A stretch of DNA of 39,700 nt, taken from positions 1 through 39,700 of the forward strand of contig JACPFF010000025.1 of NCBI GenBank assembly GCA_016183065.1. Reading direction: 5' to 3'. Position 1 is the stretch's first letter. Every line of letters starts with the position of its first letter. The position numbers and the translations under genes were made by a program. This document shows positions 10,591 through 33,195 of this stretch, one piece after another. The DNA comes from Deltaproteobacteria bacterium (GTDB lineage Bacteria > UBA10199 > GCA-002796325 > JACPFF01). The notes below the pieces were generated by a model. It made no database searches, was not told the origin of the DNA, and saw only the letters and a program-made list of their open reading frames with translations.

Positions 10591-11619
10591 ATGCAGGGAG
10601 TGTTTTTTCGCACCCATGGCGGTCCGGAGGTCCTGGAATATGGCGATCTGCCGGACCCCTCGCCGGGACCGGACGAGGTCCTGGTCAAGGTGGCGGCGTG
10701 CGGCCTGAATCATCTCGACCTCTGGGTCCGACAAGGGTTGGGGATAGACATCCCGATGCCCCATATCGGCGGCTGCGAGGTGGTGGGAACGGTGGCCGCG
10801 CTCGGTGCGCAGGTGGCCGGGCTTTCCGTGGGCGATCGCGTGTTGGTTTCGCCCGGCCACAGTTGTGGCACCTGCAGCGCCTGCCAGACCCGCAATGATT
10901 CGGCCTGTGCCGAGTATCGCGTCCACGGATTGCAACTGCAGGGCGGTTTCGCCGAATACAGTGTCGCACCCGCATGTGATGTCCTGCGCATTTCCGACCG
11001 ATGGTCGCCGGCCGAATGGGCGGTGACACCGCTCGTCTTCCTGACTGCCTGGCATATGCTCAAGACCCGCGCGCGATTGCAGGCCGGAGAGACCGTCCTC
11101 GTGCATGGTGCGGGGAGCGGGATCGGCAGCGCGGCCATCCAACTCTGCAAACACTTCGGCTGTACGGTCGTGACCACGGCGGGGAGCCAGGAAAAACTCG
11201 AAAAGGCCCGGGCCCTCGGCGCCGATTACGGGATCAACTACCGGACGCATCCGGCATTTCACAAAGAGGTGCGGCGCGTGCTCGCGGGTCGCGGGGTCGA
11301 TGTGGTCTTCGAGCATATCGGCCAAGCCACATGGACCTCCAGTCTTGCTTCCATGGACCCGGGCGGACGTCTCGTCTTCTGCGGTACCACGAGCGGGCCG
11401 ACGGTCACCATGGACCTCCGTTTTCTCTTCGTGCGCCAGTTTGACATCTTGGGCTCCTACATGGGGGCCAAGGCGGAATTGCAGGAGTGCCTCAAGCTGC
11501 TTGAAGCCGGGGTCGTGCGACCCATCCTCGATACGGCCTACCCGCTCCGCGAAACCCGTGCGGCACAAGAACGGATGCGCGCCCGCAATTTCTTCGGCAA
11601 ACTGGCCGTCACGGTGTGA
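10591..11619 (+). CDS. Zinc-type alcohol dehydrogenase (MDR superfamily)
   Basis: A 342-residue medium-chain dehydrogenase/reductase, NAD(P)-dependent. The N-terminal catalytic domain has Cys37 (AACGLNHLD) and a structural zinc set Cys92, Cys95, Cys98, Cys106 (SCGTCSAC...SAC). The usual GHE ligand motif reads GGCE (Cys62-Glu63), replacing the histidine. The Rossmann domain has HGAGSGIGSAAIQL, and the C-terminal part ends NFFGKLAVTV. AAGGATCC precedes the ATG. The closest style is the quinone oxidoreductase/zinc ADH group acting on unknown alcohols or enones. It converges with yajQ 57 bp downstream. Confidence 0.9.
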   Translation: MQGVFFRTHGGPEVLEYGDLPDPSPGPDEVLVKVAACGLNHLDLWVRQGLGIDIPMPHIGGCEVVGTVAALGAQVAGLSVGDRVLVSPGHSCGTCSACQTRNDSACAEYRVHGLQLQGGFAEYSVAPACDVLRISDRWSPAEWAVTPLVFLTAWHMLKTRARLQAGETVLVHGAGSGIGSAAIQLCKHFGCTVVTTAGSQEKLEKARALGADYGINYRTHPAFHKEVRRVLAGRGVDVVFEHIGQATWTSSLASMDPGGRLVFCGTTSGPTVTMDLRFLFVRQFDILGSYMGAKAELQECLKLLEAGVVRPILDTAYPLRETRAAQERMRARNFFGKLAVTV

Positions 11620-12175: not shown

Positions 12176-13657
12176 TTACGCCTTGGCAACTGCCTGTCGC
12201 CAGGCCGCAATCTGTTCGGTTCGTTCCCCTGTTTCCATCATGGGCTGAAAGCGGCGGTCCTCTTTCCAATGTCCTGCCAACGCCTCCTCTGAATCCCAGA
12301 CTCCCACGGCCAATCCCGCAAGCGCAGCCGCACCGATCACGGTGGTTTCAATCTGCTGCGGACGAATAATCGTCCGATCCAACAGATCGGCCTGAATTTG
12401 CAACAGCAAGTCATTCGCTGCCGCCCCACCATCGACACGGAGCGACGTGAGTGACATCCCGCTGTCGCGCTCCATGGCCGTGACCAGATCGCATTGCTGC
12501 AACGCAATCCCCTCGAGCGTTGCCCGCGCCAGATGTGCCGCAGTGGTCCCCCGCGTGAGGCCGGTAATCACCCCCCGCGCATCGGCCCGCCAGTGGGGGG
12601 CCCCCAGCCCCGCCAAGGCAGGGACGAAGACCACGCCCCCACTCGATGACACCTGACGCGCCAATGTCTCGATCTCTGATGCGTGTTTGACAAGCCCCAG
12701 CCCATCCCGCAACCATTGCACCGCGGCACCCGCAATAAAACTCGCCCCCTCCAGGGCATACGTCACCCGCCCATTTTTGCGCCACGCAACGGTGGTGAGG
12801 AGTCGCTCGCGCGAGCGCACGGGACGATCGCCGGTGTTCATCATCAAAAAGGACCCGGTGCCATAGGTACACTTGGCATCGCCCGGGGCAAATCCGCACT
12901 CCCCAAAGAGTGCCGCCTGCTGATCACCCGCCATCCCGGCGATGGGGATCCCATCCGGAAGTCCGGGGACGTGACGTGTCGTCCCCACTACGGCCGATGA
13001 GTCGACAATCGTCGGCAAGAGCGCCATGGGGACCTGCAGCAGATCGCACAACTCCGGCGACCACGCACAGGTATCAAGATCCATGAGCAGGGTGCGCGAG
13101 GCATTCGAGACATCGGTCACGTGTGATTGCCCGCCCGTCAGCCGCCAGACCAGGAAACTGTCGATGGTTCCAAAGGCCAGGGCCCCATTGCGCGCCCTGG
13201 TGCGGGCACCGGGGACCTGGTCGAGGAGCCACGTGATTTTCGTTCCGGAAAAATAGGGATCGAGCAACAGGCCTGTCCGTTGCTGAAAGAGCGGTTCTTT
13301 TCCGGCGCGCTTGAGCGCCTCACAGAGTGGAGCGGTCCGACGGCACTGCCAGACAATGGCCGGATGAATCGGCACACCAGATGCGCGATCCCACACGACC
13401 GTGGTCTCGCGTTGATTGGTCAGGCCGATCCCCGCGATTTGTCGCGGATCGACGCCGGTCTGCTGGAACAGAGCGGAGATGGTTGCGCAGAGAGAAGACC
13501 AGATCGCTTCCGGATCGTGTTCGACCCAGCCCGGTTGCGGAAAGCGTTGCGGAAATTCCTGCTGCGCAACTCCGTGGAGATGAAGATTCTGATCCACCAG
13601 AAACGCCCGTGACGATGTCGTCCCTTGGTCAATGGCCAGGAGATACCGCATAGGCAT
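12176..13657 (-). CDS. glpK: Glycerol kinase
   Basis: A 493-residue FGGY-family sugar kinase that phosphorylates glycerol to sn-glycerol-3-phosphate with ATP. It shows AIDQGTTSSRAFLVD for the phosphate loop, TNQRETTVVWD, WQCRRT, the YGTGSF adenosine segment, and LRVDGGAAANDLLLQIQADL near the C-terminus. Size matches the ~500-residue family. Two in-frame starts are possible (13657 and 13651) and neither has a clear ribosome site. No glpF or glpD lies next to it; yajQ follows. The upstream 141 bp are shared with the divergent gene at 13799. Confidence 0.96.
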   Translation of the reverse strand: MPMRYLLAIDQGTTSSRAFLVDQNLHLHGVAQQEFPQRFPQPGWVEHDPEAIWSSLCATISALFQQTGVDPRQIAGIGLTNQRETTVVWDRASGVPIHPAIVWQCRRTAPLCEALKRAGKEPLFQQRTGLLLDPYFSGTKITWLLDQVPGARTRARNGALAFGTIDSFLVWRLTGGQSHVTDVSNASRTLLMDLDTCAWSPELCDLLQVPMALLPTIVDSSAVVGTTRHVPGLPDGIPIAGMAGDQQAALFGECGFAPGDAKCTYGTGSFLMMNTGDRPVRSRERLLTTVAWRKNGRVTYALEGASFIAGAAVQWLRDGLGLVKHASEIETLARQVSSSGGVVFVPALAGLGAPHWRADARGVITGLTRGTTAAHLARATLEGIALQQCDLVTAMERDSGMSLTSLRVDGGAAANDLLLQIQADLLDRTIIRPQQIETTVIGAAALAGLAVGVWDSEEALAGHWKEDRRFQPMMETGERTEQIAAWRQAVAKA

Positions 13658-13718
13658 GGTGGCGTAGCATGAAGGCCTTCCGGGGTGCAAGGGGAGAGCC
13701 GCTCCCGTCGACAAATGT

Positions 13719-13798: not shown

Positions 13799-16700
13799 AT
13801 GAGATTCGAACGATGGCATTTGCGCGTACTCCTCACAATCGGAGTCCTCGGCAGCATGATCGGGTCCGCCTATGCCGCGTGTCCATTGACGGCTGGTGGA
13901 GAAACGCTCTGGGCCATTGACAGCCTTGGCAACCCCGACGATCCCGAGGTCATCGCCACGTGCGATGCCGGCCAGGCCAACGATTGCAGCCTCTACGGCG
14001 TCATCGCTCGCGTCAACACCCTGCTCACCACAGAGTGCACCGAGACGGAGTTGAAGGCGGGAACATTGCGGCTCCACCTGACCCTGCCAACATTCACGAT
14101 TACACAACCACTCGCACTACAACCACCTCCCGCGCTGAAACGTCTCATCCTCGATGGTTTGCAGTCGAACGGGAGTGATGCTACCATTCAGATACCGAAG
14201 AATATGCTGCTACTCACCATCGAGTGCCAGACCAATGGCCTGAACGAGTGCGCGGCGGTCGAGAACATGACCGACATTGAAATCCGTCATCTCCATCTCG
14301 ACGGTGGAAGCATCGGACTCGCACTCTTCTTGAACAAGGCAAAGGGTGGCCACTTCACGTTGGACCATCTGATCATTACCGGAAGCACGATGGGTCTTGT
14401 TGCCAAAGAAATTTACGTCAACGGAACACTCACGATGTTGGAGAGTTCAATCGAGGGCGAATTCACCGGCATGCTGATTCAGAAAAGTGCCCTGGGCGGA
14501 ACCATCAGCAACTCGTCATTCACTGGCCCCCTTGCCGCAATTGCCGTGGAGAGTGCGACACTCAATCAATTTTCCATCACCCAATCTACACTGACCAGTG
14601 AGAGTGTGGGCTTTACCCTCCAGCCGGCCGGATTTGTGGGAAAGCTCTCCTTTGCGGACCTCACCATCTCTTCGGGCGAATATGGCATTTTTCTGCAGAA
14701 TCCCATGGGAAGCGGTCTGACGTTCTCCAACGTCACACTCCTTGGCACGGATCCAGCCGGTGTCAAAGCCGGTCTGCAGATCAAGCACGATTCTCCCATG
14801 GGAAATGCAGCCACGATGGAGATCACCGGACTCAAGAGCGAAGCGTTTCCCATTGGCATTGCATTGCTTGGCAACATTTCGAAGGTGGCAATCAGTAATA
14901 GTACCTTGTCGCAGGGCATCTATGGCATTGTCACCGCGGCAGGATCTTTGGCAGCGCCGCAGGGACTGACCCTCACGAACACGACATTTGAACAGATGGC
15001 AGTTGCCCCAGTCGGATACAACACCGCGGCGCCGGCCATCTATACCGATGGGACCCTCAACACCGGGGGGCCCGTCCCGCCCGCCAACATGGGCCTCGAT
15101 ACACCGCCGTCTCCGGCACCGGCCATTCTCCTCCTTCGCGACTGGCAAAAGCCGGGGTGGTTGAAGGTCACCCTCCCGAAATATTTTGCCGGCTGCACAT
15201 CGATGGAACTCTGGTGGAGCAATGGGACCTCCTACTATCCAGTCACACTCGACACGTTTTCCGCTGAACCGTGTACAAACTGTGGCGCAGATTATAGTCG
15301 ATACGTTGCAGACACATTTCTCGATGCCGCACACGCGACGACATACGCCGGTGAGGACCTTGACGCACTCAGTGTCGCTCTGGCGATGACCTGTCCCATC
15401 CCTGTGGGAGAAGCATCGCTTCCTGCAACGTCCATGGTGTCCGCCCCCATGTCGCTCGTCTCTGCAGACTGGCTCGGCATCGAAGAAATCATCGTGGATA
15501 CCGCTGAAGACGATGCCACGAAGAATGACTGCATTGCAAAAATCGCCGACGATTGCTCGCTGCGTGGCGCTATTGCCTATGCGACCCAAAAGCGCAAAGC
15601 GGGAAAAAAGCATACGATTCGCATTCTCTTTGCGGACAATGCCCAGGCATTGTCACTCACAAAAACTCTGAAAATCACCGCCAACAACCTGAAGATTCGA
15701 GGCCCCGCCACCGTGACCAAAACCCACGGATTCGACAATACGGCGCCGGATGACCTCGCCAGTGACGTGCTGATCTGGTCGACGCAGCCCCTCGTACAGT
15801 TCAACGCGCTCACTCTCAGTGGCCCGCCGAATAATCAGACACCCACAACCTTGGTGGTCGTCGACGAGATGATGCACGTGTTCGATCAGGTGACCTTCCG
15901 GAATGCCAGCATAGCCTTGCAGGCAAAAAAGTTTGTGACGGTGACCGTCCCCACGTTCAAAAAAATCAGCGATAAAGCCCTGGTCATGAAAAATGCCTAT
16001 CCCTATGTGACAAAGGCTACGGTCACTGACACAGTGCCGACACTCGTCACCGTGACTCCCGCACCGTATGCAACGCCGGAGCTGATTGACGCCGTCCAGT
16101 TCGACTTCTCCCAGATGACCGCCAAGGTCTATTTCAAGATGAATCCGACAACATTTGAGAACAAAGAGATTGCGACACTCTCGCCCATCGTCGAAGCGTA
16201 TGTGAGTTTTTCGAAAAAAGCTCCTATCACGCTTGAGTCGATCGGCACATTTACACCGTCGCAGGTGACCGATGCCGACGGGAATAAACTCTTTTTTGTG
16301 ACAATTGCATTCCCTGACTCTTGGTCGGAGACCCTACTCACCAAATGGGGGACCATGAAGCTTTCACTCCTTGTCCACATGGAGCCGTATCCGCCTTTTA
16401 AGGCCTTGATCTCCTCCACACTCTCCGCACCCGTCACGGTGATCGAGAATCTCCAATCCCTCGACACAGATGGTGACGACGTAATCGACATCAATGACAA
16501 TGCCCCCACCATCCCCAATACCGATCAGTCCGATATTGACAGTGATGGCGTCGGCGATGTGGCCGATGATGACATGGACGGCGATGGCCTCATGAATCCA
16601 CTCGACAACTGTCCCAAGTCCGCCAATGCGGCGCAGATCGACACCGACCTCGATGGCTCCGGTGACGCGTGTGATCCGGATGATGACAATGACGGCGTCA

Positions 16701-17179
16701 TGGATGATGGCGACAATTGTCCCTTCAACGCCAACACCGATCAGGCCACCTATCTTCCCGTGGACGCTGGATGCGTCCCCGACGGAGACAAAGACGGAGT
16801 TCGGGACGATGCAGACAACTGCCTTGGTCAAAGCAATCCCGACCAGCTCGATACGGACTTCGATAAAATCGGCGACGCATGCGACAACGACGCCGACGGG
16901 GACAATGCTGATGACAGCGCGGACAACTGCCTCTTACTCTCCAACGCCCATCAGGAAGACATGGACGGGGACGGGCTCGGTGACCTGTGCGATCCCGATC
17001 TCGATGGTGATGGCATTGCGAACGCGGGCGACAACTGCTCGACCACAGCGAACGCCAACCAAGCCGATACCGATGGCAATGGCCTCGGTGATGCCTGCAC
17101 GCCGCTCCCAAAGCCGGTTACGGGAATCACCCCGCTGCAAAAGAGCCCCAATACCGGAGGGTGTACGCTGATGCCGTAG
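13799..17179 (+). CDS. Secreted beta-helix protein with thrombospondin type 3 calcium repeats
   Basis: A 1126-residue exported protein. A signal peptide (TIGVLGSMIGSAYA-A) is followed by two CSLREA-like motifs, DCSLYGVIARVN near residue 62 and DCSLRGAIAYA near 584, each starting a right-handed parallel beta-helix-like region rich in short strands and Asn/Thr turns. Residues ~890-1105 hold about nine thrombospondin type 3 Ca2+-binding repeats (DSDGVGDVADDDMDGDG, DNCPKSANAAQIDTD and variants, each with paired Cys). The C-terminus stops at NTGGCTLMP, the start of a Cys-containing sorting-like motif seen complete in the 29803 protein, but here no membrane helix follows. GGAGGG precedes the ATG. 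Likely a surface or extracellular adhesin-like protein; ligand unknown. Confidence 0.88.
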   Translation: MRFERWHLRVLLTIGVLGSMIGSAYAACPLTAGGETLWAIDSLGNPDDPEVIATCDAGQANDCSLYGVIARVNTLLTTECTETELKAGTLRLHLTLPTFTITQPLALQPPPALKRLILDGLQSNGSDATIQIPKNMLLLTIECQTNGLNECAAVENMTDIEIRHLHLDGGSIGLALFLNKAKGGHFTLDHLIITGSTMGLVAKEIYVNGTLTMLESSIEGEFTGMLIQKSALGGTISNSSFTGPLAAIAVESATLNQFSITQSTLTSESVGFTLQPAGFVGKLSFADLTISSGEYGIFLQNPMGSGLTFSNVTLLGTDPAGVKAGLQIKHDSPMGNAATMEITGLKSEAFPIGIALLGNISKVAISNSTLSQGIYGIVTAAGSLAAPQGLTLTNTTFEQMAVAPVGYNTAAPAIYTDGTLNTGGPVPPANMGLDTPPSPAPAILLLRDWQKPGWLKVTLPKYFAGCTSMELWWSNGTSYYPVTLDTFSAEPCTNCGADYSRYVADTFLDAAHATTYAGEDLDALSVALAMTCPIPVGEASLPATSMVSAPMSLVSADWLGIEEIIVDTAEDDATKNDCIAKIADDCSLRGAIAYATQKRKAGKKHTIRILFADNAQALSLTKTLKITANNLKIRGPATVTKTHGFDNTAPDDLASDVLIWSTQPLVQFNALTLSGPPNNQTPTTLVVVDEMMHVFDQVTFRNASIALQAKKFVTVTVPTFKKISDKALVMKNAYPYVTKATVTDTVPTLVTVTPAPYATPELIDAVQFDFSQMTAKVYFKMNPTTFENKEIATLSPIVEAYVSFSKKAPITLESIGTFTPSQVTDADGNKLFFVTIAFPDSWSETLLTKWGTMKLSLLVHMEPYPPFKALISSTLSAPVTVIENLQSLDTDGDDVIDINDNAPTIPNTDQSDIDSDGVGDVADDDMDGDGLMNPLDNCPKSANAAQIDTDLDGSGDACDPDDDNDGVMDDGDNCPFNANTDQATYLPVDAGCVPDGDKDGVRDDADNCLGQSNPDQLDTDFDKIGDACDNDADGDNADDSADNCLLLSNAHQEDMDGDGLGDLCDPDLDGDGIANAGDNCSTTANANQADTDGNGLGDACTPLPKPVTGITPLQKSPNTGGCTLMP

Positions 17180-18190: not shown

Positions 18191-18242
18191 ATCGTGCGGC
18201 ATCGTGATTGACGGAGCATGCAAGGCACACTATGCCCCCTCC

Positions 18243-19217
18243 ATGCAGCTCGATCAGATGCTTCTTCCGATCCGGGAAGACTTGGCCACCGTTGAGACCG
18301 TCATTCGCCATCGCTGTACGACATCGATCTCCACGATCACAGAAGTGGTCCATTATATCATCCAAAATGGGGGGAAACGGTTTCGTCCGGCATTGACGAT
18401 CCTGGCGGCCAGACTTGCCGGGTATGTGGGTGATGCCGCGGCACAGGTCGGCGCGGCCATGGAGATGGTCCATACCGCATCACTCCTTCACGATGATGTG
18501 GTCGATAATGCCCCCACGCGGCGCGGGCGGCCCTCGACCAATGCCAAATGGGGGAATCAGATCAGCGTGCTGGTCGGCGATTTTTTCTGGTGCAAGGCCT
18601 GCGAGATCATCGTCGATCTGGGGCAACACCGCATCTTGCGGGCCATTACCGATGCGGTCGTCGGCACCACCGAGGGCGAGGTCCTCGAACTGATCAAGAG
18701 TAACGACATCAGCATCAGTGAAGAGGAATATCTCAAAATCATCGCCCACAAGACCGCAAAACTCCTGGCCTGCTCGTGCCATGTGGGGGCCATGCTCGGC
18801 GGTGTCTCAGAGACGCTCGAACACGCGGTCCAACGATACGGCTTTGATCTCGGTATGGCCTTTCAACTCGCCGATGACGCGCTCGATTATGTGTCGGATG
18901 AAGATCGCTTCGGCAAATCGCGCGGCACAGATCTCCGTGAGGGACGGATGACCTTGCCGCTCATTATTGCCCTGCAGCGCTGCGACGCCCGTGAACAATC
19001 GCTGATCAAGGAGGCCCTGCTCGCGCAGACGCTACGAGACGACCAGCTCGCGGAAGTCCTGCAGATCCTCGACCGGAGCGGCGGCATGGCCTACACTCAG
19101 GAAAAGACCCTGACCTACGTCGAACGCGCCAAATCCCACCTCGCCCCCTTCAAACACTCCCTCGAAAAGGCGGCACTCTTCCAACTCGCCGATTACGTCA
19201 CCACGCGGGACATGTGA
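18243..19217 (+). CDS. ispB: Polyprenyl (octaprenyl-type) diphosphate synthase
   Basis: A 324-residue trans-isoprenyl diphosphate synthase that extends allylic diphosphate chains, probably for the quinone side chain, with FPP as primer. It has GGKRFRPAL (about 43-51), the first Asp-rich motif DDVVDNAPTRRGRPS (residues 84-88) and the second DDALDYVSDE near the C-terminal half. Two residues before DDVVD are LH after S, with small/bulky side chains consistent with long-chain products, but chain length is inferred. The start at 18243 is chosen from the family N-terminus; upstream open frame covers the hydrolase gap. It is paired in the window with the short-chain IspA (20577-21467). Confidence 0.92.
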   Translation: MQLDQMLLPIREDLATVETVIRHRCTTSISTITEVVHYIIQNGGKRFRPALTILAARLAGYVGDAAAQVGAAMEMVHTASLLHDDVVDNAPTRRGRPSTNAKWGNQISVLVGDFFWCKACEIIVDLGQHRILRAITDAVVGTTEGEVLELIKSNDISISEEEYLKIIAHKTAKLLACSCHVGAMLGGVSETLEHAVQRYGFDLGMAFQLADDALDYVSDEDRFGKSRGTDLREGRMTLPLIIALQRCDAREQSLIKEALLAQTLRDDQLAEVLQILDRSGGMAYTQEKTLTYVERAKSHLAPFKHSLEKAALFQLADYVTTRDM

Positions 19218-19379: not shown

Positions 19380-20570
19380 CTACACGTGAAGTTGTGTCCA
19401 CACCTCGCGGATGCTGCGGGCGCCGGCGCGGGGGCCTTCGGCGTGGCCAAAAACGCCGCGGCCGGCGATGAAACCGAAATCGACATGCCCGACCTGTTGC
19501 GCAACGTGCGCGAGAGTCTGTGCAGAATCACTACCTCCCGGGATGGGAAGCGCGGGAGCAATGGCGCCAAGCGGTTCCAGACAGGCATGGATATTGGCAC
19601 GGACTTCATCGGGCGCGGTCTGCATGCGATCGCCAAACCCGGCAAAACCGATCATATCCGCGCCGGCGATGCGCATCAGCCTGGTCAGAAGCGCCGAGGC
19701 AATGCCACCTTGTGGCCGTCGCGTCAATACTGCGACACCGGCAAAGTGCGCCATGACCGGCACGCCACTCACGCGCCGCAACGCACGCAACGCCGAGAGA
19801 CCGGTCCACACCGGACTGATCATCACCGCCGTTGCGCCGGCACGTTCGGCGATATGGCATTGTTCGGGGATCCGGTCCACTTCGTCGATACAGTTGGCGA
19901 TGAACCCCTTCCGTTCGCCCGTGAGTTGCTCGGCGCGCTGCCGGCGTTCTGACACACATGTCACGCGCCCGCGCAATGTCGACCACGATGTATCGGCCTG
20001 CATCTCGTCGTCTTTGGCCATATCGAGGCCACCACACCACGCCTCAAAGGCCAATGCCGCAAAATCGGCGGGCGAGAGTCCGAGGTTGGGTTTCACCACG
20101 CCGATAAAAAACGGGCGTTCATGAATCTGCAATTGTTCGCGCACACCATGGAGACCGAACTGAGGCCCGGCAAACTCGGCAAGATAACCCGCCGGAAAGG
20201 TGATATCGAGCAGTGTGATTGCGGCAACCCCTGGGGCATAAAAGGTCCCCTCTCCAGCCGCCGCCACGAGCAGGTTCGGCAGACGCGCGCCAAAATTGCG
20301 ATGCGGATGCGCGATCTCCACCAGCCACCGGCCTTGGGCAACGTCACCCACCGGTTCCAGGCGAATGACCTTCGCGCCAAAACGTTCACGAAGGTCCTCG
20401 ACCACCCCAACACGCTGCCACATGGCGGTACTCTGCTCGGCACAGAGCCCTGCAACGGCCTTGCGCGGATCGATCGTTGGGACGAATTCATAGAGAAAGC
20501 GCAGATACGCCGGCTGATCCAACTGCGACCACTCGGCGAAGAAAGCGGGGATGTCGTAGTCGGTCACCAT
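19380..20570 (-). CDS. RuBisCO-like protein (form IV)
   Basis: A 396-residue RuBisCO large-chain fold protein. RuBisCO equivalents seen: KPNLGLSPADF with Lys160 (position of Lys175) but Asn162 in place of Lys177; GGLDMAKDDEM with the carbamylation Lys186 and metal ligands Asp188/Glu189 kept; PGGSDS near the C-terminus; and GRGVFGHAEGP. The loop-6 lysine region reads GFAGFGDRM with no lysine. Loss of these residues excludes bona fide carboxylation and places it in form IV; the KPNxGLSP, AKDDEM, GFGDRM and PGGSDSA patterns resemble the 'Photo' clade of Chlorobium, whose reaction is not settled. It is the last gene of the xseA-xseB-ispA operon, 6 bp after ispA, where dxs is often found. Substrate not assignable. 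Confidence 0.9.
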   Translation of the reverse strand: MVTDYDIPAFFAEWSQLDQPAYLRFLYEFVPTIDPRKAVAGLCAEQSTAMWQRVGVVEDLRERFGAKVIRLEPVGDVAQGRWLVEIAHPHRNFGARLPNLLVAAAGEGTFYAPGVAAITLLDITFPAGYLAEFAGPQFGLHGVREQLQIHERPFFIGVVKPNLGLSPADFAALAFEAWCGGLDMAKDDEMQADTSWSTLRGRVTCVSERRQRAEQLTGERKGFIANCIDEVDRIPEQCHIAERAGATAVMISPVWTGLSALRALRRVSGVPVMAHFAGVAVLTRRPQGGIASALLTRLMRIAGADMIGFAGFGDRMQTAPDEVRANIHACLEPLGAIAPALPIPGGSDSAQTLAHVAQQVGHVDFGFIAGRGVFGHAEGPRAGARSIREVWTQLHV

Positions 20571-20576
20571 CGCACG

Positions 20577-21467
20577 TCACGACTTTCGTTCGATGATATA
20601 TCGCGCAAGCGCACGAAGCGGTGCGGCCCGCTCATCAAAGTCGGTCAAGGCGTCCACCGCCTCGGCACCCAGCGCATGCATCCGTGCCCGCGCCGCCTCG
20701 GCACCGAGCATCGCGGGATAGGTCGCTTTGTCACGCGCAAGGTCATTCCCTACCTTTTTTCCCAACATCTCGGTCGTCCCCTCGATCGCCAATAGATCAT
20801 CCGCAATCTGAAAAGCCAGTCCAATGGCCGCACCGTATCGACGCAGCGCTGCAACGGCGGGCCTCTCGGCCCTCGCCAATCGCGCACCACAGACCACCGC
20901 GGCCTGCAACAGCGCCCCGGTCTTGCAACGATGCACTTGCTCCACTTCCGGCAGCGTGAGCTGCCGATGTTCCGCCAGCATATCAAGTGCCTGACCGCCG
21001 ACCATGCCCGCGCCCCCCGCGGCCATGGCCACTTCGTGGATCACGACAACTAACACCTCGGGCGCCACGCAGGCGGCAACACTCGGCTCGGACAAGACGG
21101 CAAAGGCCTCGGTCAGCAGTGCATCGCCCGTCAGAATGGCCATGGCCTCCCCATAGACCTTGTGACTGGTCGGGCGCCCGCGTCGCAGATCATCGTTGTC
21201 CATGGCCGGGAGATCGTCGTGAATCAACGAATACGTATGAATCATTTCAAAGGCACAGGCACACGACAACACTGCTGCCGCGTCTCCACCAACGGCCTCG
21301 GCGGCCGCAGTGACCAAAATCGGACGGAGACGTTTTCCCCCGGCCGTCAGGCTGTACTGCATGGCCTCGCGCAGCCGCGTCGGCATCTCGGTGCACTGCG
21401 CCAGATGGGCCTCCATGGCCGCCTCGACGTACGTCTTTCGTTCCTGCAGATACGTCGCGAGATTCAT
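20577..21467 (-). CDS. ispA: Farnesyl/geranyl diphosphate synthase
   Basis: A 296-residue short-chain trans-prenyltransferase making FPP from IPP and DMAPP. It has GGKRLRP (43-49), the first Asp-rich motif DDLPAMDND (84-92), which is the long form typical of bacterial FPP synthases, and GNDLARDKATYP. The second Asp-rich motif reads DDLLAIEG, so its final Asp is Ala rather than the usual Asp. The start overlaps xseB as ATGA. The order xseA-xseB-ispA is a common bacterial operon. Length is normal. Confidence 0.95.
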   Translation of the reverse strand: MNLATYLQERKTYVEAAMEAHLAQCTEMPTRLREAMQYSLTAGGKRLRPILVTAAAEAVGGDAAAVLSCACAFEMIHTYSLIHDDLPAMDNDDLRRGRPTSHKVYGEAMAILTGDALLTEAFAVLSEPSVAACVAPEVLVVVIHEVAMAAGGAGMVGGQALDMLAEHRQLTLPEVEQVHRCKTGALLQAAVVCGARLARAERPAVAALRRYGAAIGLAFQIADDLLAIEGTTEMLGKKVGNDLARDKATYPAMLGAEAARARMHALGAEAVDALTDFDERAAPLRALARYIIERKS

Positions 21468-21730
21468 CGAGCACGACCCGAAGTCGTGGTATCATCGGTG
21501 AACGGCTCTGTGCGCATGTTTCCATCCGTATCGGCAATCAGTTGATCAATGCGACCCTTTGCGGCTTGGAGCATGGATTCACACAGACGGACCAACCGGG
21601 TCCCTTCTTCAAAGATCGTAAGCGATGCATCGAGTGAAAGATCGCCTTTTTCCAGTTGGCGTACATGCTGATCTAGCGCACTGAGCGCATCCTCGAACGT
21701 TTGATCTTCACCCTTTGTTGTTTTGGTCAT
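21464..21730 (-). CDS. xseB: Exodeoxyribonuclease VII small subunit
   Basis: An 88-residue subunit of exonuclease VII, which degrades single-stranded DNA in complex with XseA. It shows the conserved FEDALSALDQHVRQLEKGDL and LDASLTIFEEGTRLVRLCE helical hairpin. The start and stop overlap xseA and ispA by 4 bp each (ATGA), a tightly coupled arrangement. The acidic C-terminal extension (TEPFTDDTTTSGRAR) is variable in the family. Confidence 0.95.
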   Translation of the reverse strand: MTKTTKGEDQTFEDALSALDQHVRQLEKGDLSLDASLTIFEEGTRLVRLCESMLQAAKGRIDQLIADTDGNMRTEPFTDDTTTSGRAR

Positions 21731-23010
21731 ACTCTCTCCTTCACCGTCACCTTCAGTCCGCCTTCTGCAAAACGGACATGGAGTTGTTCGCCCGGCGCGA
21801 CATCTGCGGCTCGACGCACAGCCTTTCCGCGGACGGTATCTGTCACCACGGCATACCCCTTGGCCAACACGGCCAGCGGAGAAAGGTGCTGCAATTCACC
21901 AGCGAGTCCGCGCAAGCGTCCTTCGCCCTCACGCCATCGAGTACCCACAGCCTGCACCAACCGTTCGCGGCCATGGGCAATCTGCAACAGCAAATCCGGA
22001 AATCGGGCCGTTGGCGGTCGCAATCGCTGGTGGAGATCGTTCAAGACGTTGCGTCGCTCTTCCCACCAGCGTCGCAACGAAACGTTCAGCTGGTAACGCC
22101 GTTCTGCAACTTGCAGCAATAATTCCTGCTGATCGGGCACAACAACCTCCGCCGCGGCAGAGGGCGTCGGTGCACGCACATCCGCAACAAAATCGGCAAT
22201 GGTAAAATCGATCTCATGGCCCACCGCACTCACCACTGGGGTGCGGCACGCGAATATTGCACGAGCCACCACTTCCTCATTAAAGGCCCACAAATCCTCG
22301 ACTGACCCTCCACCGCGTCCCACAATAATCACATCACACGCACCATGGTGATCCAAATGTTCCAGTGCCGCAACAATCGTTGCTGCGGCGCCCTCGCCCT
22401 GCACTTTGGCCGGGGCCAAACGGATCGCGACGGCCGGAAAGCGCCGTTGCAACACCTTCAACATATCCTGAACCGCCGCACCCGTGGCTGCCGTGACAAT
22501 CCCGACGCGACGCGGAAAGGGTGGCAGTGGTTTTTTATGTCGCGCGTCGAAGAGCCCCTCGGCAGAGAGACGCTTCTTCAACTGCTCGAATGCCAGCTGC
22601 AGCGCACCAACGCCCTTTGGCTCTGCAGAATCGACCAAGAGACTGTATTTCCCCTGCGGTGGATAGAGATTGAGACGCCCATGACAGATCAGTGCCATCC
22701 CGTTTTCGATGGCAAACGAGAATTTCTGGTTCACGCCGCGAAAGACCACGGCTTCGATAATCGATTGCTCGTCCTTCAGGCGAAAAAACCAGTGCCCGGA
22801 GGAATGCGGACGAAAATTCGAGACTTCCCCCACCACCCAGACATCGGGATAGGCACCCTCGATCGCCAGCTTCAGCTGCGTGGTCAGCGCGGACACGGTC
22901 CAAATGTGCGGCGCCTGCGATGGCACGGGCTGGTCAGCAGGGATTGTCGCATTGCTCGCAGGAAGCGACGCAGTGAAATCGAGCGAAAACTGTCCGACCG
23001 GCGTCACCAT
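21727..23010 (-). CDS. xseA: Exodeoxyribonuclease VII large subunit
   Basis: A 427-residue catalytic subunit of exonuclease VII. An OB-fold is followed by the nuclease domain: VVGEVSNFRPHSSGHWFFRL (about 59-78), GVGALQLAFEQLKKRL, PRRVGIVTAATGAAVQDML, DVIIVGRGGGSVEDLWAFN and PVVSAVGHEIDFTIADFVAD. The conserved core starts near IWTVSALT; the first ~35 residues form an unusual Pro/Ala-rich lead, and no better start is visible downstream. It heads the operon xseA-xseB-ispA-RuBisCO-like protein. Its upstream region holds repeat R5 in reverse orientation. Confidence 0.95.
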   Translation of the reverse strand: MVTPVGQFSLDFTASLPASNATIPADQPVPSQAPHIWTVSALTTQLKLAIEGAYPDVWVVGEVSNFRPHSSGHWFFRLKDEQSIIEAVVFRGVNQKFSFAIENGMALICHGRLNLYPPQGKYSLLVDSAEPKGVGALQLAFEQLKKRLSAEGLFDARHKKPLPPFPRRVGIVTAATGAAVQDMLKVLQRRFPAVAIRLAPAKVQGEGAAATIVAALEHLDHHGACDVIIVGRGGGSVEDLWAFNEEVVARAIFACRTPVVSAVGHEIDFTIADFVADVRAPTPSAAAEVVVPDQQELLLQVAERRYQLNVSLRRWWEERRNVLNDLHQRLRPPTARFPDLLLQIAHGRERLVQAVGTRWREGEGRLRGLAGELQHLSPLAVLAKGYAVVTDTVRGKAVRRAADVAPGEQLHVRFAEGGLKVTVKERV

Positions 23011-24491: not shown

Positions 24492-25823
24492 TTACGGTAT
24501 TCCCTCGAGGATCTTCTGCATGGCGACGGAATTTTTTCCGGCGTGGTCGAGTTGTGTACTATCCGCCTCGATCTTCTGGCGCGTCAACGCAATGCCGTAG
24601 GATTTCAGGATCGCCTCGATCTCGGCATACCGCTTATCGATGGAATTGCGGACCGATTCAAATCCGATCCGGGCGGCCTTGATGCGATGCCGATAGATAA
24701 AGGGGTTGAGCTCAAAAAAGGCCATGTCCGAGGCATACGGTTCAATCAGGATAATGTCCCCCTTGAACGTCTCGCTCTGGCGATAGTTGCGAATCGTCTG
24801 ATGGAGGCGCGTATGAAAAATGGCCCGAAAAATCTGGTTCAGCACCGCGCTAATTCCGTTCGTCGAGAGCGGGCGACCATGGGTCACATAGCGGTGATCG
24901 CGCTGGATATATTCCCAAAAAACGGTGTTTTCGACGGGACGGAACGGGTTGTAGCAGACAATCAACTCCGCACCTTTGGCCACGGAAACATCGATGTGGG
25001 CGGTTTCAAAACATCCGCCATCCACATAGTCGATACCGCGAATCCGCGCCGGTTTGTAAAAGACCGGCATTGCGGTGGAGGCCTGTACCGCCTCGGAAAT
25101 GGTCACATCATGACATTCATCCGGACCAAACACCACACGATTGGCCCCATCAAGCGTCATGGCACAGATGTAGAGCTGTTTCTGGCGCAGCTGCTCCACC
25201 ACCTGAAAATTGTTGGTGAGATGATTGCGCTCGATATTACGCCGCAGATACCGTTCAATCGGGGCATTGTCGAAGAGACCCGTGGGGAGGAGCTGCAACC
25301 AACTCGGTCCGTCGGTCGGCAATGTGACCATGGAGGTCACGAGATTCCACAGCTCCGTATAGTGGTGCGTCGTCGGTGCTTGAATGACCCGCCAGAGACG
25401 CGACACAAGCTCCGGACTGCTCTCCCGCCATCCCTTGAGGAGATTCCACGCGGCCCGCGGAAGAAAACCGAGGGCGTCGAAACACCATCGCACCGGGCGC
25501 GTGATACATTCCCGGTAATTGGGCCAGTAAAAATGCCACGGAGCCAACTGGAGAAAGTGTCGCGAACTCCCATCGAGCGAGCGGAGGATCTCTTCGGGAG
25601 TCAATCCGGCTGCCAACGGCACCGCCAGGAGGCTCCCGGAGCTCACCCCCACATAGATGTCAAAATCATTGACGGTAAAGTTGGCAAAAAAGTCATTCAA
25701 GGCCTTGACGCCGCCAGTTTTGAACGAACCCCCGGTCACCGCCCCACCTGAAAGGATCAGCGCCTTCTTGGCCCACGGCTTGACGACCGTCAGATCGCTC
25801 TTTTGGACGATGGTAATGCCCAT
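24492..25823 (-). CDS. Patatin-like phospholipase
   Basis: A 443-residue patatin-fold lipase using a Ser-Asp dyad on phospholipid or acylglycerol esters. The oxyanion loop is LSGGAVTGGSFKTGGVKAL (about 23-41), the nucleophile is GVSSG (Ser61), and the aspartate lies in VDGGCF with the DGG signature. C-terminal ~170 residues are helical and include YRHRIKAARIGFESV. No signal peptide is seen, so a cytosolic location is likely. The start at 25823 (ATGGGCATTACC) is chosen for fit to the domain; longer starts lack a ribosome site. It is divergent from ftsK; no lipid-metabolism neighbours were seen. Confidence 0.9.
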   Translation of the reverse strand: MGITIVQKSDLTVVKPWAKKALILSGGAVTGGSFKTGGVKALNDFFANFTVNDFDIYVGVSSGSLLAVPLAAGLTPEEILRSLDGSSRHFLQLAPWHFYWPNYRECITRPVRWCFDALGFLPRAAWNLLKGWRESSPELVSRLWRVIQAPTTHHYTELWNLVTSMVTLPTDGPSWLQLLPTGLFDNAPIERYLRRNIERNHLTNNFQVVEQLRQKQLYICAMTLDGANRVVFGPDECHDVTISEAVQASTAMPVFYKPARIRGIDYVDGGCFETAHIDVSVAKGAELIVCYNPFRPVENTVFWEYIQRDHRYVTHGRPLSTNGISAVLNQIFRAIFHTRLHQTIRNYRQSETFKGDIILIEPYASDMAFFELNPFIYRHRIKAARIGFESVRNSIDKRYAEIEAILKSYGIALTRQKIEADSTQLDHAGKNSVAMQKILEGIP

Positions 25824-25891
25824 GCACACTGCTCTACCGGCTTTGCAGGACCGGGTCAATGTCGTGCTCCCGGTGAGAGCGTTTGACTCGC

Positions 25892-25924
25892 GTGACCATT
25901 GCTTTTTCGGTGCGGTCACTTTTT
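25892..25924 (+). other. Inverted repeat followed by T-run upstream of ftsK
   Basis: GTGACC (25892-25897) and GGTCAC (25914-25919) can pair across a 16-base loop, followed by TTTTT (25920-25924). It lies in the 196-bp divergent gap between the patatin and ftsK genes, about 95 bp before ftsK. It could be a weak attenuator-like terminator or an operator. Sequence match only. Confidence 0.22.
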
Positions 25925-26019
25925 GTGAAGACACGCACCCCGCATTCCCATAAGTATTTCGTGCTATTTGCGCATCTTCCTGTTGCAGAATGCCACGCGG
26001 CATGCCAAGGAAAGGCGTC

Positions 26020-28473
26020 ATGGTTGCCAGTGCCCGCCTGCGAAGAGAACATCGAAAAGAACTCTCGGCCATTTTTGCCTTGGCGATCGGCGTCTTCCTC
26101 GCCCTCTGTCTGATCTCCTACGACCCCGCGGATCCGGCACTCAACGTCGCTTCCAACATGGCAGAGGTCACCAATCTCGGCGGACCGGTCGGGGCATACA
26201 CGGCGGACATCCTCTTCACGATTTTCGGTGTGAGCGCTTACGTGGTCGTTGCCGTCTGTGTACTGATCAGCATTCTCCTCTTCCTGGGGCGACAGGTCCA
26301 CCTCAACTGGCGCCAATGCCTCGCCTATCTGGTCATGATTTTTGCGGCGGCGGCCATGCTCCATATTCGTTTCACTATGGTCACCATCCGCGGCCAGCCT
26401 GTTGAGGCCGGTGGGCTCGTGGGCGGCGTACTGGGGGCCCTGGCCACGACGTACCTCAATATCTACGGGGCGTACATTCTCGCCAGCGCCCTCTTTGCCG
26501 TGGCGTTTTTTTATGTCACGCAACTCTCCCTCATGCTGCTCTGTCGCTGGTCGTGGCAGCTCCTGTACGCGAGCGCTGCCTGGGCCTGGCAATGGTCGGT
26601 CATCTACGCCGGACGCCTGACCCGCGCGGTGCCCAAACTCCTCCATGCCATCGGGGATTGGTGGCTGCGATGGATGAAAGCACGGGCCCTGGCACAGACC
26701 CGTCGCAAGAACAAAGCCGTCAAGATATCGCGGCCACTGTCGGCACAGGACGAGACGGCCAAGGCCGCGCCCCCCCCCATGGCCCGCCGAAAACCGACCG
26801 CAGGGGATGAAGAAAGAGATGGCGCGGACGGAGACAAGGAGGACGCCGAGGCATCAGAGATGGACGACGCAAACGACGACCGTCCCGGCGATGAAGACGG
26901 AGAGACCTCCGAAGAAAAGGTGGCCACACCAAAAATTTATGAACGCCAGGATCGCACGCGCCGACTCCGACCGTCCCAACTCGAATTAACACGGATCAGC
27001 GGACACTATGTCTTTCCGGCGTTGGGCCTCCTCAATGCCGAGGGGCAAAAGACTGCGGTGATCGATGAAGCCAATCTCCGCGCACGCGCACGCCTCTTGG
27101 AAAGCAAGCTGGTCGAATACGGGATCCACGGACGGGTGACGGAGATCCACCCCGGTCCCGTCGTCACCATGTACGAATACGAACCCGCCGCCGGGGTCAA
27201 GGTGAACAAGATCGTCGGCGCGGAAGACGATCTCTCCGTCACCATGGGCGGCCGCGCCATCCGCATTGTCTCGCATATCCCGGGCAAGGCCGCGGTCGGC
27301 ATCGAAGTCCCCAACATGGAACGGGAGACCGTCTGGCTCAAGGAAATCATCGGCGACCCCAAATTCCGTCGTGCCAACTCCAAACTCCCGCTGGCGATGG
27401 GAAAGGACATCGAAGGCCATACCATTGTGGCCGATCTCACCAAGATGCCGCATCTGCTCGTTGCCGGGGCCACGGGCTCTGGCAAAAGTGTCGCGATCAA
27501 TTGCATGATCACGAGCGTCCTCTACAAGGCAACCCCCGCGGATGTTCGGATGATCTTGGTCGATCCCAAAATGTTGGAGCTCTCGATTTACGACGGCATC
27601 CCGCATCTCCTCCTTCCCGTGGTCACCAAACCGAAAGATGCGACATTGGCCCTCAAATGGGCGCTGCGGGAAATGGAGCGTCGGTATCGCCTCCTCTCGG
27701 ACGCCGGTGTCCGCAATATCATCGGCTATAACGAGAAGGTCGAAAAAGGCCTCCTCGAACTCGTCTCCGAAGAAGAGGCCGAGACCCTCACGCTCGACAA
27801 TCCCGACGCCGCGCCCCACACCGGGAAAATCCCCTACATCCTGATCGTCATCGACGAAATGGCCGACCTGATGATGGTCGCCGGCCGTGATATCGAGGAA
27901 ACCGTCACCCGGCTGGCGCAAATGGCACGGGCCTCGGGGATTCACCTGATTCTGGCCACACAGCGGCCGTCGGTCGATGTCATTACCGGGATCATCAAGG
28001 CCAATTTCCCCTCGCGCATCGCGTTCAAAGTGAGCTCCAAACACGACGCGCGCACGATCATCGACACGGTCGGTGCCGAACAACTCCTCGGCATGGGCGA
28101 CATGCTCTTTCTGGCCCCCAACACGTCGAACCTCATCCGCATCCATGGGGGATTTATCACGGAAAACGAGGTACAACGTGTGGTGACCCATTGCAAACAG
28201 CAGGCCGAGGCGATTTACGACGAGACCATTTTGCAGCAGCAAGAGACCGGGAGTGCGGCTGGTGGAGAGGAAGAATACGACGAACTGTACGATCAGGCCG
28301 TCCGCATTGTGACCGACAGTGGCCAGGCCTCGATTTCCATGGTCCAGCGGCGTCTCCGGATCGGCTATAATCGCGCGGCACGGCTCATCGAACGGATGGA
28401 AGTGGATGGGATCGTCGGACCCCCGGATGGCAGCAAGCCCCGCCAAGTCCTGGCCCAGTCGCACTCATCATGA
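26020..28473 (+). CDS. ftsK: DNA translocase FtsK
   Basis: An 817-residue septal DNA pump that clears chromosomal termini during division. The N-terminus has about four membrane helices; a ~100-residue acidic Glu/Asp-rich linker (DGADGDKEDAEASE region) follows. The motor contains the Walker A motif GATGSGKSV near residue 484 and the Walker B ILIVIDEMADLMM near 608. The C-terminal gamma winged-helix domain (SISMVQRRLRIGYNRAARLI) recognises KOPS sites. The start at 26020 has AAGGAAAGG ahead of it. Length matches the family's shorter-linker members. The stop is 71 bp before greA. Confidence 0.97.
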   Translation: MVASARLRREHRKELSAIFALAIGVFLALCLISYDPADPALNVASNMAEVTNLGGPVGAYTADILFTIFGVSAYVVVAVCVLISILLFLGRQVHLNWRQCLAYLVMIFAAAAMLHIRFTMVTIRGQPVEAGGLVGGVLGALATTYLNIYGAYILASALFAVAFFYVTQLSLMLLCRWSWQLLYASAAWAWQWSVIYAGRLTRAVPKLLHAIGDWWLRWMKARALAQTRRKNKAVKISRPLSAQDETAKAAPPPMARRKPTAGDEERDGADGDKEDAEASEMDDANDDRPGDEDGETSEEKVATPKIYERQDRTRRLRPSQLELTRISGHYVFPALGLLNAEGQKTAVIDEANLRARARLLESKLVEYGIHGRVTEIHPGPVVTMYEYEPAAGVKVNKIVGAEDDLSVTMGGRAIRIVSHIPGKAAVGIEVPNMERETVWLKEIIGDPKFRRANSKLPLAMGKDIEGHTIVADLTKMPHLLVAGATGSGKSVAINCMITSVLYKATPADVRMILVDPKMLELSIYDGIPHLLLPVVTKPKDATLALKWALREMERRYRLLSDAGVRNIIGYNEKVEKGLLELVSEEEAETLTLDNPDAAPHTGKIPYILIVIDEMADLMMVAGRDIEETVTRLAQMARASGIHLILATQRPSVDVITGIIKANFPSRIAFKVSSKHDARTIIDTVGAEQLLGMGDMLFLAPNTSNLIRIHGGFITENEVQRVVTHCKQQAEAIYDETILQQQETGSAAGGEEEYDELYDQAVRIVTDSGQASISMVQRRLRIGYNRAARLIERMEVDGIVGPPDGSKPRQVLAQSHSS

Positions 28474-30845: not shown

Positions 30846-32075
30846 ATGCGGCATGCGACCTGTATCCTACTGACCCTTTTCTTGAGCCTGGGGAGCAGTC
30901 TTCCAACCCGCGCCGCGCCCTCATCCCCCCACCCTACGGCCATTTCGCTTTTCTGGGCCATCGAGCGGGCGCTCGCGCAGCATCCACGGATTCGCGCAAA
31001 GGCCGAAGCCGCCGATGCCGCCACCCACCACGTGCGCACCACCGGCCTCTTGCCAGACCCCATGGCCATGGTGACCCTCGATCGGTCGCAATCCCCCTCG
31101 GACGAATGGATGGTCAGACTCACCCAATCGATCCCCTTTCCCGGAAAATTGATCTTTGAACGAAAGATGGCACATCAGGCGGCCAACCGCGCCAAGGCAC
31201 GTCATCTGGAAAGTCTGGTCGATCTGCGGGCGGCCGTACAGGAGGCCTTTTTCACGGTCCATTTTATCGACCAGCAATTGGCCATCGAACAGGAAAACCA
31301 GCGCCTCTTTGACCATTTCTCTGCCACCGCAGAAGTCCGGTACGCGACCGGCGATGCCCTATTCGGCGATCCACTCAAGGCCCGCGTGGAGGCCGAGGCC
31401 ATGGCCGCCCGCGTGGCGGAACTGCGACTGACGCGCGAGGCCGTTGCCGAGGAACTGGCGTACCTCCTCGATCTCCCGAGTGGAACGCCCATCCGTCTCG
31501 CCGCACCACGCGGACCCGTAGCGCCGGCGATGACACAGGACGACTATGTCGCCTATGCCAGGGCAAACCATCCCCGCCTGCGGGCGGCCGCTGCGGCCGT
31601 TGGCGAGGCCGAGGCCGGCATCGGGTATGCCAAGGCCCACTTCGGCCCCGATATCACGACCGAGGCGAGTTATCACACGATGACCGAGGCGGTGAGTGGG
31701 AGCGTAGGCCTCAGTTTTCCCCTCTATTTCGGGCGTCAGCGAGGGATGGTGGCCGAGGCACGGGCAAAGTGGCGATCGGAGCAGGCACTGGAAGACGATC
31801 TCGAGCAACAACTGAGCGCTCACATACGCCAATTCTACCGCAAAATGACGGCAGCCCGCCGCGTCGCCACGGAGTATCAGCAATCGATCATCCCGCGGGC
31901 AGACGCGACGATTCGTGCGGCAGAGACCGCCTATCAGGCCAAGAAGGTCGAGTTCCTGACGCTCGTCGATGCCATTCGCGAAAAGCGCGATTTCCAGATC
32001 CGCTATTGGGAGGCCCGTACGGAATACGAATTGATGCGGGCCAGACTGGAACAACTGGCGGGGATTGCCCAGTAA
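30846..32075 (+). CDS. cusC: TolC-family outer-membrane efflux channel (CusC-like)
   Basis: A 409-residue outer-membrane component that opens the exit duct of the RND pump. A signal peptide (TCILLTLFLSLGSSLPTRAA) precedes the OEP helical repeats (AISLFWAIERALAQHPRIRA, then the VRLTQSIPFPGKLIFERKMA region and the second half from DDYVAYARANHPRLRAAAAA). About 409 residues is shorter than E. coli CusC and fits the compact OEP type found with CusBA in other phyla. It lies 25 bp after csoR and 31 bp before cusB. Assignment to copper is by operon context. Confidence 0.9.
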   Translation: MRHATCILLTLFLSLGSSLPTRAAPSSPHPTAISLFWAIERALAQHPRIRAKAEAADAATHHVRTTGLLPDPMAMVTLDRSQSPSDEWMVRLTQSIPFPGKLIFERKMAHQAANRAKARHLESLVDLRAAVQEAFFTVHFIDQQLAIEQENQRLFDHFSATAEVRYATGDALFGDPLKARVEAEAMAARVAELRLTREAVAEELAYLLDLPSGTPIRLAAPRGPVAPAMTQDDYVAYARANHPRLRAAAAAVGEAEAGIGYAKAHFGPDITTEASYHTMTEAVSGSVGLSFPLYFGRQRGMVAEARAKWRSEQALEDDLEQQLSAHIRQFYRKMTAARRVATEYQQSIIPRADATIRAAETAYQAKKVEFLTLVDAIREKRDFQIRYWEARTEYELMRARLEQLAGIAQ

Positions 32076-32106
32076 TTTTTCACGGCACCCGGTAAAGGAG
32101 TCCGAC

Positions 32107-33195
32107 ATGCGTCTGTTTCCGATCCTCCTGCTGCTCATCCCCCTGCTCCTCACAGGGAGCGGTATGGCGGTCACCGGCTGTCAGCGTGGTGGACCGGAAA
32201 AGGCGCAGCACGGGGAGCATGCCCCGCTCTACACCTGCCCGATGCATCCCGGCATCCGACAGGATCGACCCGGGGACTGCCCGATCTGCGGCATGCGACT
32301 CGTGCCGCTTGCCGCCGAGTTGCCCGCCGAACCGCCCGGAGCCTCGGAGCCCCATGCGGGGCATGCTGCAGGAGCCACCACCGACACCACGGATCGCGCG
32401 GCAGAAAATGGTGTCTACATTTCGCCGGAACGTCAACAGCTGATCGGCGTCAAAACCCTCGTAATTGCCGTGCAACCGGCCAGGCAGGAAATCCGCACGG
32501 TGGGGCACGTCGCTTTTGATCCCGACCTGATGATTGCGCAACGGGAGTACATCGAGGCCTTGCGCCTCGGCGACCGCTCCCTCATCGAAGCGGTGGTGCT
32601 GCATCTGCAGCATATGGGGATCAGCGAGGCCGAACTCGGACGTCTCCGGCAGACGCGCAAGGAATCGCACGGCCTCTTTCTCCCCAAGAAGGGAGACTCG
32701 GTCTGGATTTATGCCCCCCTCTACGAACATGAGCTCCCCGCCGTCACACCGGGGATGCGTGCCATCGTCTCCCTGCAATCCGGGGGTCCCACGTTTGAAG
32801 GGACCATCCGCTCGATCGATCCGATCATCGACCCCAAGACGCGGAGCGCACGGGCACGTATCGAAATTCCGCACGCCGGCGGGACATTACGCCCCGACAC
32901 CTACGTTAACACCGCTATCGTCGTCGACCATGGCATGGCCATCACCGTCCCCACCACCGCGGTCATCGATACGGGGACGCGCATCCTCGTCATCCGCCGC
33001 CACGGCAAGGGCCATTTTGAGCCGGTGGAGATCGAAACCGGTGTCAATCTGGGCGATGCCTGGATCGTCCGGGCCGGACTGCAGGAAGGTGATGTCATTG
33101 TCGCCCGCGCCACGTTTTTGGTGAATTCCGAGAGTTCGCTCAAGTCGGCACTCGGCGCGCCAGAGAGCGCACCGAGTGGAGGACACCAACATTGA
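32107..33195 (+). CDS. cusB: CusB-like periplasmic adaptor with heavy-metal-binding domain
   Basis: A 362-residue membrane-fusion adaptor linking the RND pump to the outer channel. The N-terminus is lipoprotein-like (SGMAVTGC, Cys25), followed by a heavy-metal-binding domain (residues ~41-67, YTCPMHPGI...GDCPICGM) that carries two Cys-rich pairs. A His-rich linker (EPHAGHAAGATT) follows, and then the HlyD-type barrel-sandwich and beta-barrel domains (FLPKKGDSVWIYAPLYEHEL, IDPIIDPKTRSARARIEI). The start at 32107 is chosen because AAAGGAG is 8 bp before it; the frame extends slightly upstream. Its stop overlaps the cusA start. The C-terminus ends SGGHQH. Confidence 0.92.
   Translation: MRLFPILLLLIPLLLTGSGMAVTGCQRGGPEKAQHGEHAPLYTCPMHPGIRQDRPGDCPICGMRLVPLAAELPAEPPGASEPHAGHAAGATTDTTDRAAENGVYISPERQQLIGVKTLVIAVQPARQEIRTVGHVAFDPDLMIAQREYIEALRLGDRSLIEAVVLHLQHMGISEAELGRLRQTRKESHGLFLPKKGDSVWIYAPLYEHELPAVTPGMRAIVSLQSGGPTFEGTIRSIDPIIDPKTRSARARIEIPHAGGTLRPDTYVNTAIVVDHGMAITVPTTAVIDTGTRILVIRRHGKGHFEPVEIETGVNLGDAWIVRAGLQEGDVIVARATFLVNSESSLKSALGAPESAPSGGHQH

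Follow-up and report, generated by a model that had tools for sequence, protein, structure and literature searches.

The window analysed here is the whole of contig C7, 39,700 bases long, from a draft genome (G000) of 1.97 Mb that is 89% complete. On its minus strand lies a gene for a RuBisCO-like protein (RLP), directly downstream of ispA. The original prediction described an xseA-xseB-ispA operon with an RLP gene 6 bp behind it, and profile searches confirmed the families of all four genes, on the same strand and at the positions given there. The features of the locus are as follows.

21727-23010, minus strand: xseA, exonuclease VII large subunit (TIGR00237, 470 bits, cut-off 180)
21464-21730, minus strand: xseB, exonuclease VII small subunit (TIGR01280, 71 bits, cut-off 35)
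20577-21467, minus strand: ispA, farnesyl diphosphate (FPP) synthase (NF045485, 376 bits, cut-off 275)
19380-20570, minus strand: RLP, 396 amino acids, intact (PF00016, 138 bits; PF02788, 30.5 bits)
18240-19217, plus strand: second (long-chain) polyprenyl diphosphate synthase, start codon estimated (PF00348, 243 bits)

The xseA/xseB and xseB/ispA frames each overlap by 4 bp, and the TGA of ispA is separated from the ATG of the RLP gene by the 6 bp CGTGCG. The polyprenyl synthase gene is convergent with the RLP gene; its top equivalog is octaprenyl synthase (NF008140, 254 bits), below the cut-off of that model (412). The canonical order xseA-xseB-ispA-dxs-tlyA is not found in the window, i.e. 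the RLP gene and not dxs directly follows ispA. We found no other gene of the RuBisCO superfamily in the window genome.

Clade and active site of the RuBisCO-like protein

The closest solved structures to the window RLP are those of the Chlorobium tepidum RLP (1tel/1ykw, E ~1e-120) and of Rhodopseudomonas palustris RLP2 (2qyg, 8e-119). The next solved relative is a form III enzyme, and this match is far weaker (6e-47). In a tree of 30 sequences the window RLP grouped with the same two proteins, apart from the other RLP and RuBisCO forms, and the split had a support of 100/100. The RLPs of phototrophs and those of the class to which the window genome belongs formed a single, fully supported clade. 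A quick tree hinted that the phototroph sequences are nested inside the class clade, but this was not upheld by a careful tree and the approximately unbiased (AU) test, which left nested and side-by-side arrangements both acceptable (p 0.38). A scan of genome contigs with the window RLP as query returned only distant relatives (~30% identity).

The active-site signature of this clade, form IV-Photo, is intact in the window RLP (E60, W66, E123, K175, N177, K201, D203, E204, H294, F295, R334, M335, G379-G380-S381, G403 and R404). The only departure is at position 65, which is M in G000 and G001 and Q in the others. The metal-site residues K201, D203 and E204 are thus present, whereas the carboxylation residues T65, N123, K177, R295, H327, K334 and S379 are replaced by M, E, N, F, G, R and G, respectively. 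By residue criteria the protein is predicted not to be a functional RuBisCO of forms I-III. Structure matches, signature and phylogeny all agree with the placement in the Photo clade that had been proposed from the sequence. The IV-Photo RLPs of C. tepidum and R. palustris have the signature in common with the window RLP at nearly all of 19 positions, and the active-site residues of RLP2 in particular are nearly all the same. The two organisms are phototrophs, however, whereas the window RLP lies in the ispA operon of an organism in which dxs was not found. To our knowledge, structures have been solved in the IV-Photo clade but no reaction has been assigned to it.

Loss of dxs and the genes beside ispA

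The product of dxs, DXS, makes 1-deoxyxylulose 5-phosphate (DXP), on which DxR, the product of dxr, acts. No dxs was found in the window genome: the top matches to TIGR00204 scored 134 and 58 bits against a cut-off of 466, and the 134-bit candidate was rejected as a plain transketolase (NF004559, 844 bits). DxR is present (484 bits). Since the draft is only 89% complete, the same question was put to the whole class, represented by 46 genomes in 21 family groups (G000-G045), nearly all of them draft assemblies. A dxr gene was found in 43 of the 46, and dxs in 6: five were over the cut-off (G003, G005, G011, G041 and G044), and the sixth, in G004, is clear but truncated by the end of its contig. 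The highest-scoring pair of sub-threshold matches that was checked (G009) is a split transketolase. In other words, nearly all of the class runs DxR without DXS, and the intact dxs elsewhere in the genome that the original prediction had named as a possible refutation did not turn up. In the f3 genomes that have dxs (G005:C174, G004:C60 and G003:C11), the gene is followed by one for a class II aldolase (PF00596), in G005 also by pyrF, and ispA is not adjacent. A published genome survey found 181 species that lack only Dxs, in some of which an alternative enzyme probably exists (Marshall et al. 2023, PMC10663253).

Orthologues of the window RLP occur in 26 of the 46 genomes at about 45-57% identity, the one in G005 being only a contig-end fragment. 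The upstream ispA, on the same strand, is the nearest or next-nearest gene in 23 of the 25 genomes that could be assessed, the exceptions being G003 and G009. Recurring at this level of sequence divergence, the arrangement, with or without yjbQ between the two genes, is not due to chance. In many bacteria dxs lies between ispA and tlyA; here tlyA directly follows the RLP gene in G001, G010 and G013 and comes one gene later in G002 and G009, so that in these genomes the RLP occupies the slot of dxs. In G022 two small genes (1858-2557) separate ispA from the RLP gene; by eye they resemble an inserted nucleotidyltransferase/HEPN-type pair. A further RLP, in G021, was left out of the orthologue count because it is only 36% identical, ispA is not adjacent and active-site residues are altered; this divergent RLP stands in a genome that carries the dehydrogenase set described below.

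The neighbourhood proposed originally, ispA linkage, holds across the class, and two elements had to be added to it. The first is a UPF0047/YjbQ gene that adjoins the RLP gene in 19 of the 26 genomes, usually between ispA and RLP. It is a plain member of its family (PF01894, 135 bits) with the invariant histidines H45, H79 and H93. We know of no YjbQ that works with an RLP. In spite of its position in most of the class, no YjbQ gene stands beside the RLP in the other seven genomes, i.e. the window genome, G002, G009 and four f14 genomes, and the idea that YjbQ is required was rejected on this ground.

The linkage extends to another phylum. On plasmid pTs485 of the purple sulfur bacterium Ca. 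Thiodictyon syntrophicum the order is idi-YjbQ-RLP, with an RLP 48.8% identical to that of the window; phytoene synthase and desaturase genes come next on the opposite strand, and the whole lies within a photosynthesis gene cluster. The expectation that the clade would be linked to isoprenoid genes in other genomes is thus borne out by ispA in the class and by idi and carotenoid genes outside it.

The second element is an alternative gene set. Genomes with neither dxs nor RLP often carry a zinc-type medium-chain dehydrogenase (MDR) gene beside ispA. One such protein, MDR_A, was searched for in all 46 genomes. Strong orthologues, with scores of 236 bits or more, were found in 17 (G006, G007, G014, G015, G016, G020, G021, G025, G026, G030, G031, G033, G035, G036, G039, G042 and, with 42% identity, G041), and the top match in any genome with an ispA-type RLP was 134 bits. 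No genome has both, 26 have the RLP only, 17 MDR_A only and 3 neither (Fisher p 6.5e-10, kinship ignored). The DxR tree calls for at least 7 changes of the RLP/MDR state, which differs between G007 and G019, two genomes of one genus. When independent pairs on this tree are compared, the second trait shifted against the first in 4-6 of them and along with it in 0; given the small number of pairs, the sign test is borderline at 0.05. Of the 40 genomes without dxs, 39 carry one or the other set; the exception, G029, is 67% complete.

Most genomes with MDR_A have a second paralogue, MDR_B, which adjoins ispA in the f12 genomes. The solved relatives of both are sorbitol/ketose, threonine, galactitol-1-phosphate and other alcohol dehydrogenases. 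In seven genomes MDR_B adjoins a gene for an aldolase of the DeoC/LacD family; the copy tested passes the LsrF equivalog (408 bits, cut-off 297) and aligns end to end with Escherichia coli LsrF. The genes of G044 run xseA-xseB-ispA-lsrF-MDR, and lsrF and the MDR gene are 4 bp apart. LsrF joins or splits dihydroxyacetone phosphate (DHAP) and acetyl-CoA via 3-hydroxy-5-phosphonooxypentane-2,4-dione, which is DXP oxidised at C4. The class enzyme thus resembles the LsrF of autoinducer 2 (AI-2) processing in score and alignment, but it sits with dehydrogenases and, in G044, with ispA, and the direction that we propose for it is the reverse. The loci read around it showed no recognisable lsr transport genes. 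A ferrochelatase gene lies between MDR_A and MDR_B in G026, and a UbiD decarboxylase gene follows MDR_B beside ispA in the f12 genomes. The window itself has a zinc-type dehydrogenase gene (10591-11619) that is remote kin of MDR_A (99 bits), with a gene for an FGGY carbohydrate kinase near it (12176-13714).

Possible routes to DXP

The linkage to ispA, the absence of dxs with dxr kept and the mutual exclusion of the two gene sets point to the same step, and from these genomic patterns we infer that the RLP supplies DXP in place of DXS, with a probability of about 0.6. The role in isoprenoid supply proposed originally is supported to this extent. The alternation moreover suggests that both sets, the RLP and the dehydrogenases with the LsrF-type aldolase, would make DXP in place of DXS.

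A precedent exists in Rhodospirillum rubrum, where an RLP shifts a carbonyl group and so converts 5-methylthioribulose 1-phosphate (MTRu-1P) to 1-methylthioxylulose 5-phosphate (MTXu-5P). This shunt from 5'-methylthioadenosine (MTA) to isoprenoids consists of MtnP, MtnA, an RLP of the DeepYkr type and a cupin, MTXu-5P methylsulfurylase. The class has its first two enzymes. In the window genome there are genes for MTA phosphorylase (G000:C9:90772-91485, 318 bits, cut-off 275) and MtnA (G000:C4:17514-18503, 425 bits, cut-off 279); MTA phosphorylase is over its cut-off in 36 of the 46 genomes, and 43 have a match to MtnA. No class II aldolase of the MtnB/Ald2/FucA superfamily was found in 30 of the 46, the window genome included, so that in most genomes the best-known onward routes from the MtnA product are missing. 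The likeness to R. rubrum thus lies in these enzymes and in an RLP that is proposed to feed DXP. The differences are that the R. rubrum RLP has another active site and is accompanied by a cupin, whereas the window RLP is of the IV-Photo type and the usual neighbour in the class is YjbQ. In the loci read, which is as far as the search for a cupin went, none was recognised next to the RLP gene, and an RLP that does stand beside a cupin (locus L164) has an active site that differs from that of the window RLP. Moreover, as dxs is absent from most of the class, the RLP would be the main source of DXP there and not a salvage side route as in R. rubrum.

The closest rival is that the class nevertheless runs an R. 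rubrum-like shunt, in which the RLP would make MTXu-5P from MTRu-1P and YjbQ would take over from the cupin, stripping off the methylthio group to leave DXP. The presence of MTA phosphorylase and MtnA in the window genome and the class would fit this, as would a YjbQ with three invariant histidines next to the RLP in 19 of 26 genomes and an earlier in vitro report of slow or trace conversion of MTRu-1P by R. palustris RLP2, as cited in a later study (PMC5893883). In that study, however, activity of RLP2 on MTRu-1P was below detection, and deleting its gene caused no phenotype in MTA metabolism and revealed no role in vivo (PMC5893883). As moreover no cupin was seen near the RLP and the window operon has no YjbQ, we consider this shunt unlikely. 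In other words, the R. rubrum analogy drawn in the original prediction is not simply transferable, given that RLP2 was not detectably active on MTRu-1P and that no cupin was seen beside the RLP.

The null result with RLP2 leads us to favour a 5-deoxypentulose phosphate as the substrate of an RLP that supplies DXP, although this exact choice is doubtful. The RLP would form an enediolate at the Lys201-Asp203-Glu204 metal site and shift the carbonyl of a 5-deoxypentulose 1-phosphate from C2 to C4, i.e. it would carry out the R. rubrum reaction minus the methylthio group. With 5-deoxy-D-ribulose 1-phosphate this would yield DXP directly, and as such a substrate carries no methylthio group, no cupin would be needed. 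The compound could derive from 5'-deoxyadenosine via MTA phosphorylase and MtnA, or from an aldol reaction of DHAP with acetaldehyde. MtnA is known to act on both 5-methylthioribose 1-phosphate and 5-deoxyribose 1-phosphate (PMC10986504). YjbQ may be an auxiliary protein of this route, and a dispensable one, since seven RLP genomes lack it beside the RLP.

Genomes that lack the RLP would use the LsrF-type aldolase/thiolase and the polyol-type dehydrogenases to build DXP out of DHAP and a two-carbon unit. As the LsrF intermediate is DXP oxidised at C4, LsrF running in reverse together with a reductase for the C4 ketone would give DXP. Alternatively, DHAP and acetaldehyde could be joined in an aldol reaction and the product turned into DXP by two dehydrogenases, a route that would use all three proteins. 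We found no relevant paper that joins LsrF or 5-deoxyribulose 1-phosphate with DXP.

Several observations weigh against a replacement of DXS by the RLP. Three genomes (G003, G005 and G011) have both dxs and RLP, and as this is half of the six genomes with dxs, the notion that loss of the RLP simply tracks gain of dxs was rejected. YjbQ is missing from the operon of the window genome itself, and nearly all the assemblies surveyed are drafts. The null result with RLP2 also counts here; the R. palustris strain has other routes as well. Finally, by a rough estimate the 5'-deoxyadenosine released by radical-SAM enzymes may be too small an amount to be the only source of isoprenoids.

The co-occurrence of dxs and RLP in three genomes would also suit a second rival, namely that detoxification of products of MTA and 5'-deoxyadenosine is all that the RLP and the dehydrogenase set do, that the adjacency to ispA is an inherited accident, and that DXP comes from a third enzyme or from promiscuous known ones. 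MtnP and MtnA are class-wide, and promiscuous routes to DXP through AceE, RibB and YajO are known as suppressors of dxs loss (PMC10663253). This is improbable, as both sets have kept or regained the linkage to ispA while the RLPs diverged to about 45-57% identity, the idi and carotenoid linkage recurs in another phylum, and the chemistry of LsrF indicates DHAP and acetyl-CoA and not detoxification. A role in sulfur or stress metabolism in which isoprenoids are not involved, as proposed for C. tepidum, where the RLP has been tied to sulfur oxidation and stress (as summarised in PMC5893883 and PMC10892978), is very improbable, as in the loci read ispA and YjbQ are the constant neighbours of the RLP and no sulfur gene was seen to recur next to it.

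With the supply of DXP by the RLP as its core, a wider proposal can be put forward tentatively, the odds being somewhat against it in full. A class poor in DXS would make DXP by two interchangeable, undescribed routes, one through a IV-Photo RLP, usually with YjbQ, acting on a 5-deoxypentulose phosphate, the other through an LsrF-type aldolase and polyol-type dehydrogenases from DHAP and a C2 unit. In green and purple bacteria, the RLPs of the IV-Photo clade would raise the supply of DXP for carotenoid and bacteriochlorophyll synthesis. If true, this would settle the function of the IV-Photo clade, green and purple bacteria included. As DXS catalyses the first, flux-limiting step of the methylerythritol phosphate (MEP) pathway, replacements for it are of interest to metabolic engineering and with regard to antibacterial targets. 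The RLP is a concrete candidate that bears both on the missing replacement of DXS (PMC10663253) and on the reaction of its clade, and its strict alternation with the LsrF-type aldolase and dehydrogenases brought out these as a second candidate set.

Other features of the window

Upstream of xseA the window has a gene for a patatin-like phospholipase (24492-26072), and a patatin gene adjoins xseA in many genomes of the class. Beyond the polyprenyl synthase gene lies one for a protein of 1126 amino acids (13799-17179) whose C-terminal part has thrombospondin type 3 repeats and whose start resembles a signal peptide. Near one end of the contig (66-1835) there is a large serine recombinase gene with a weak match to the CcrB/XisF type. 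A heavy-metal efflux set of the resistance-nodulation-division (RND) type occupies 30846-36362, with an outer membrane factor, an HlyD/CusB-like protein that has a metal-binding domain and an AcrB-family pump, and it is followed by a gene for an ArsP-type permease (37013-38110).

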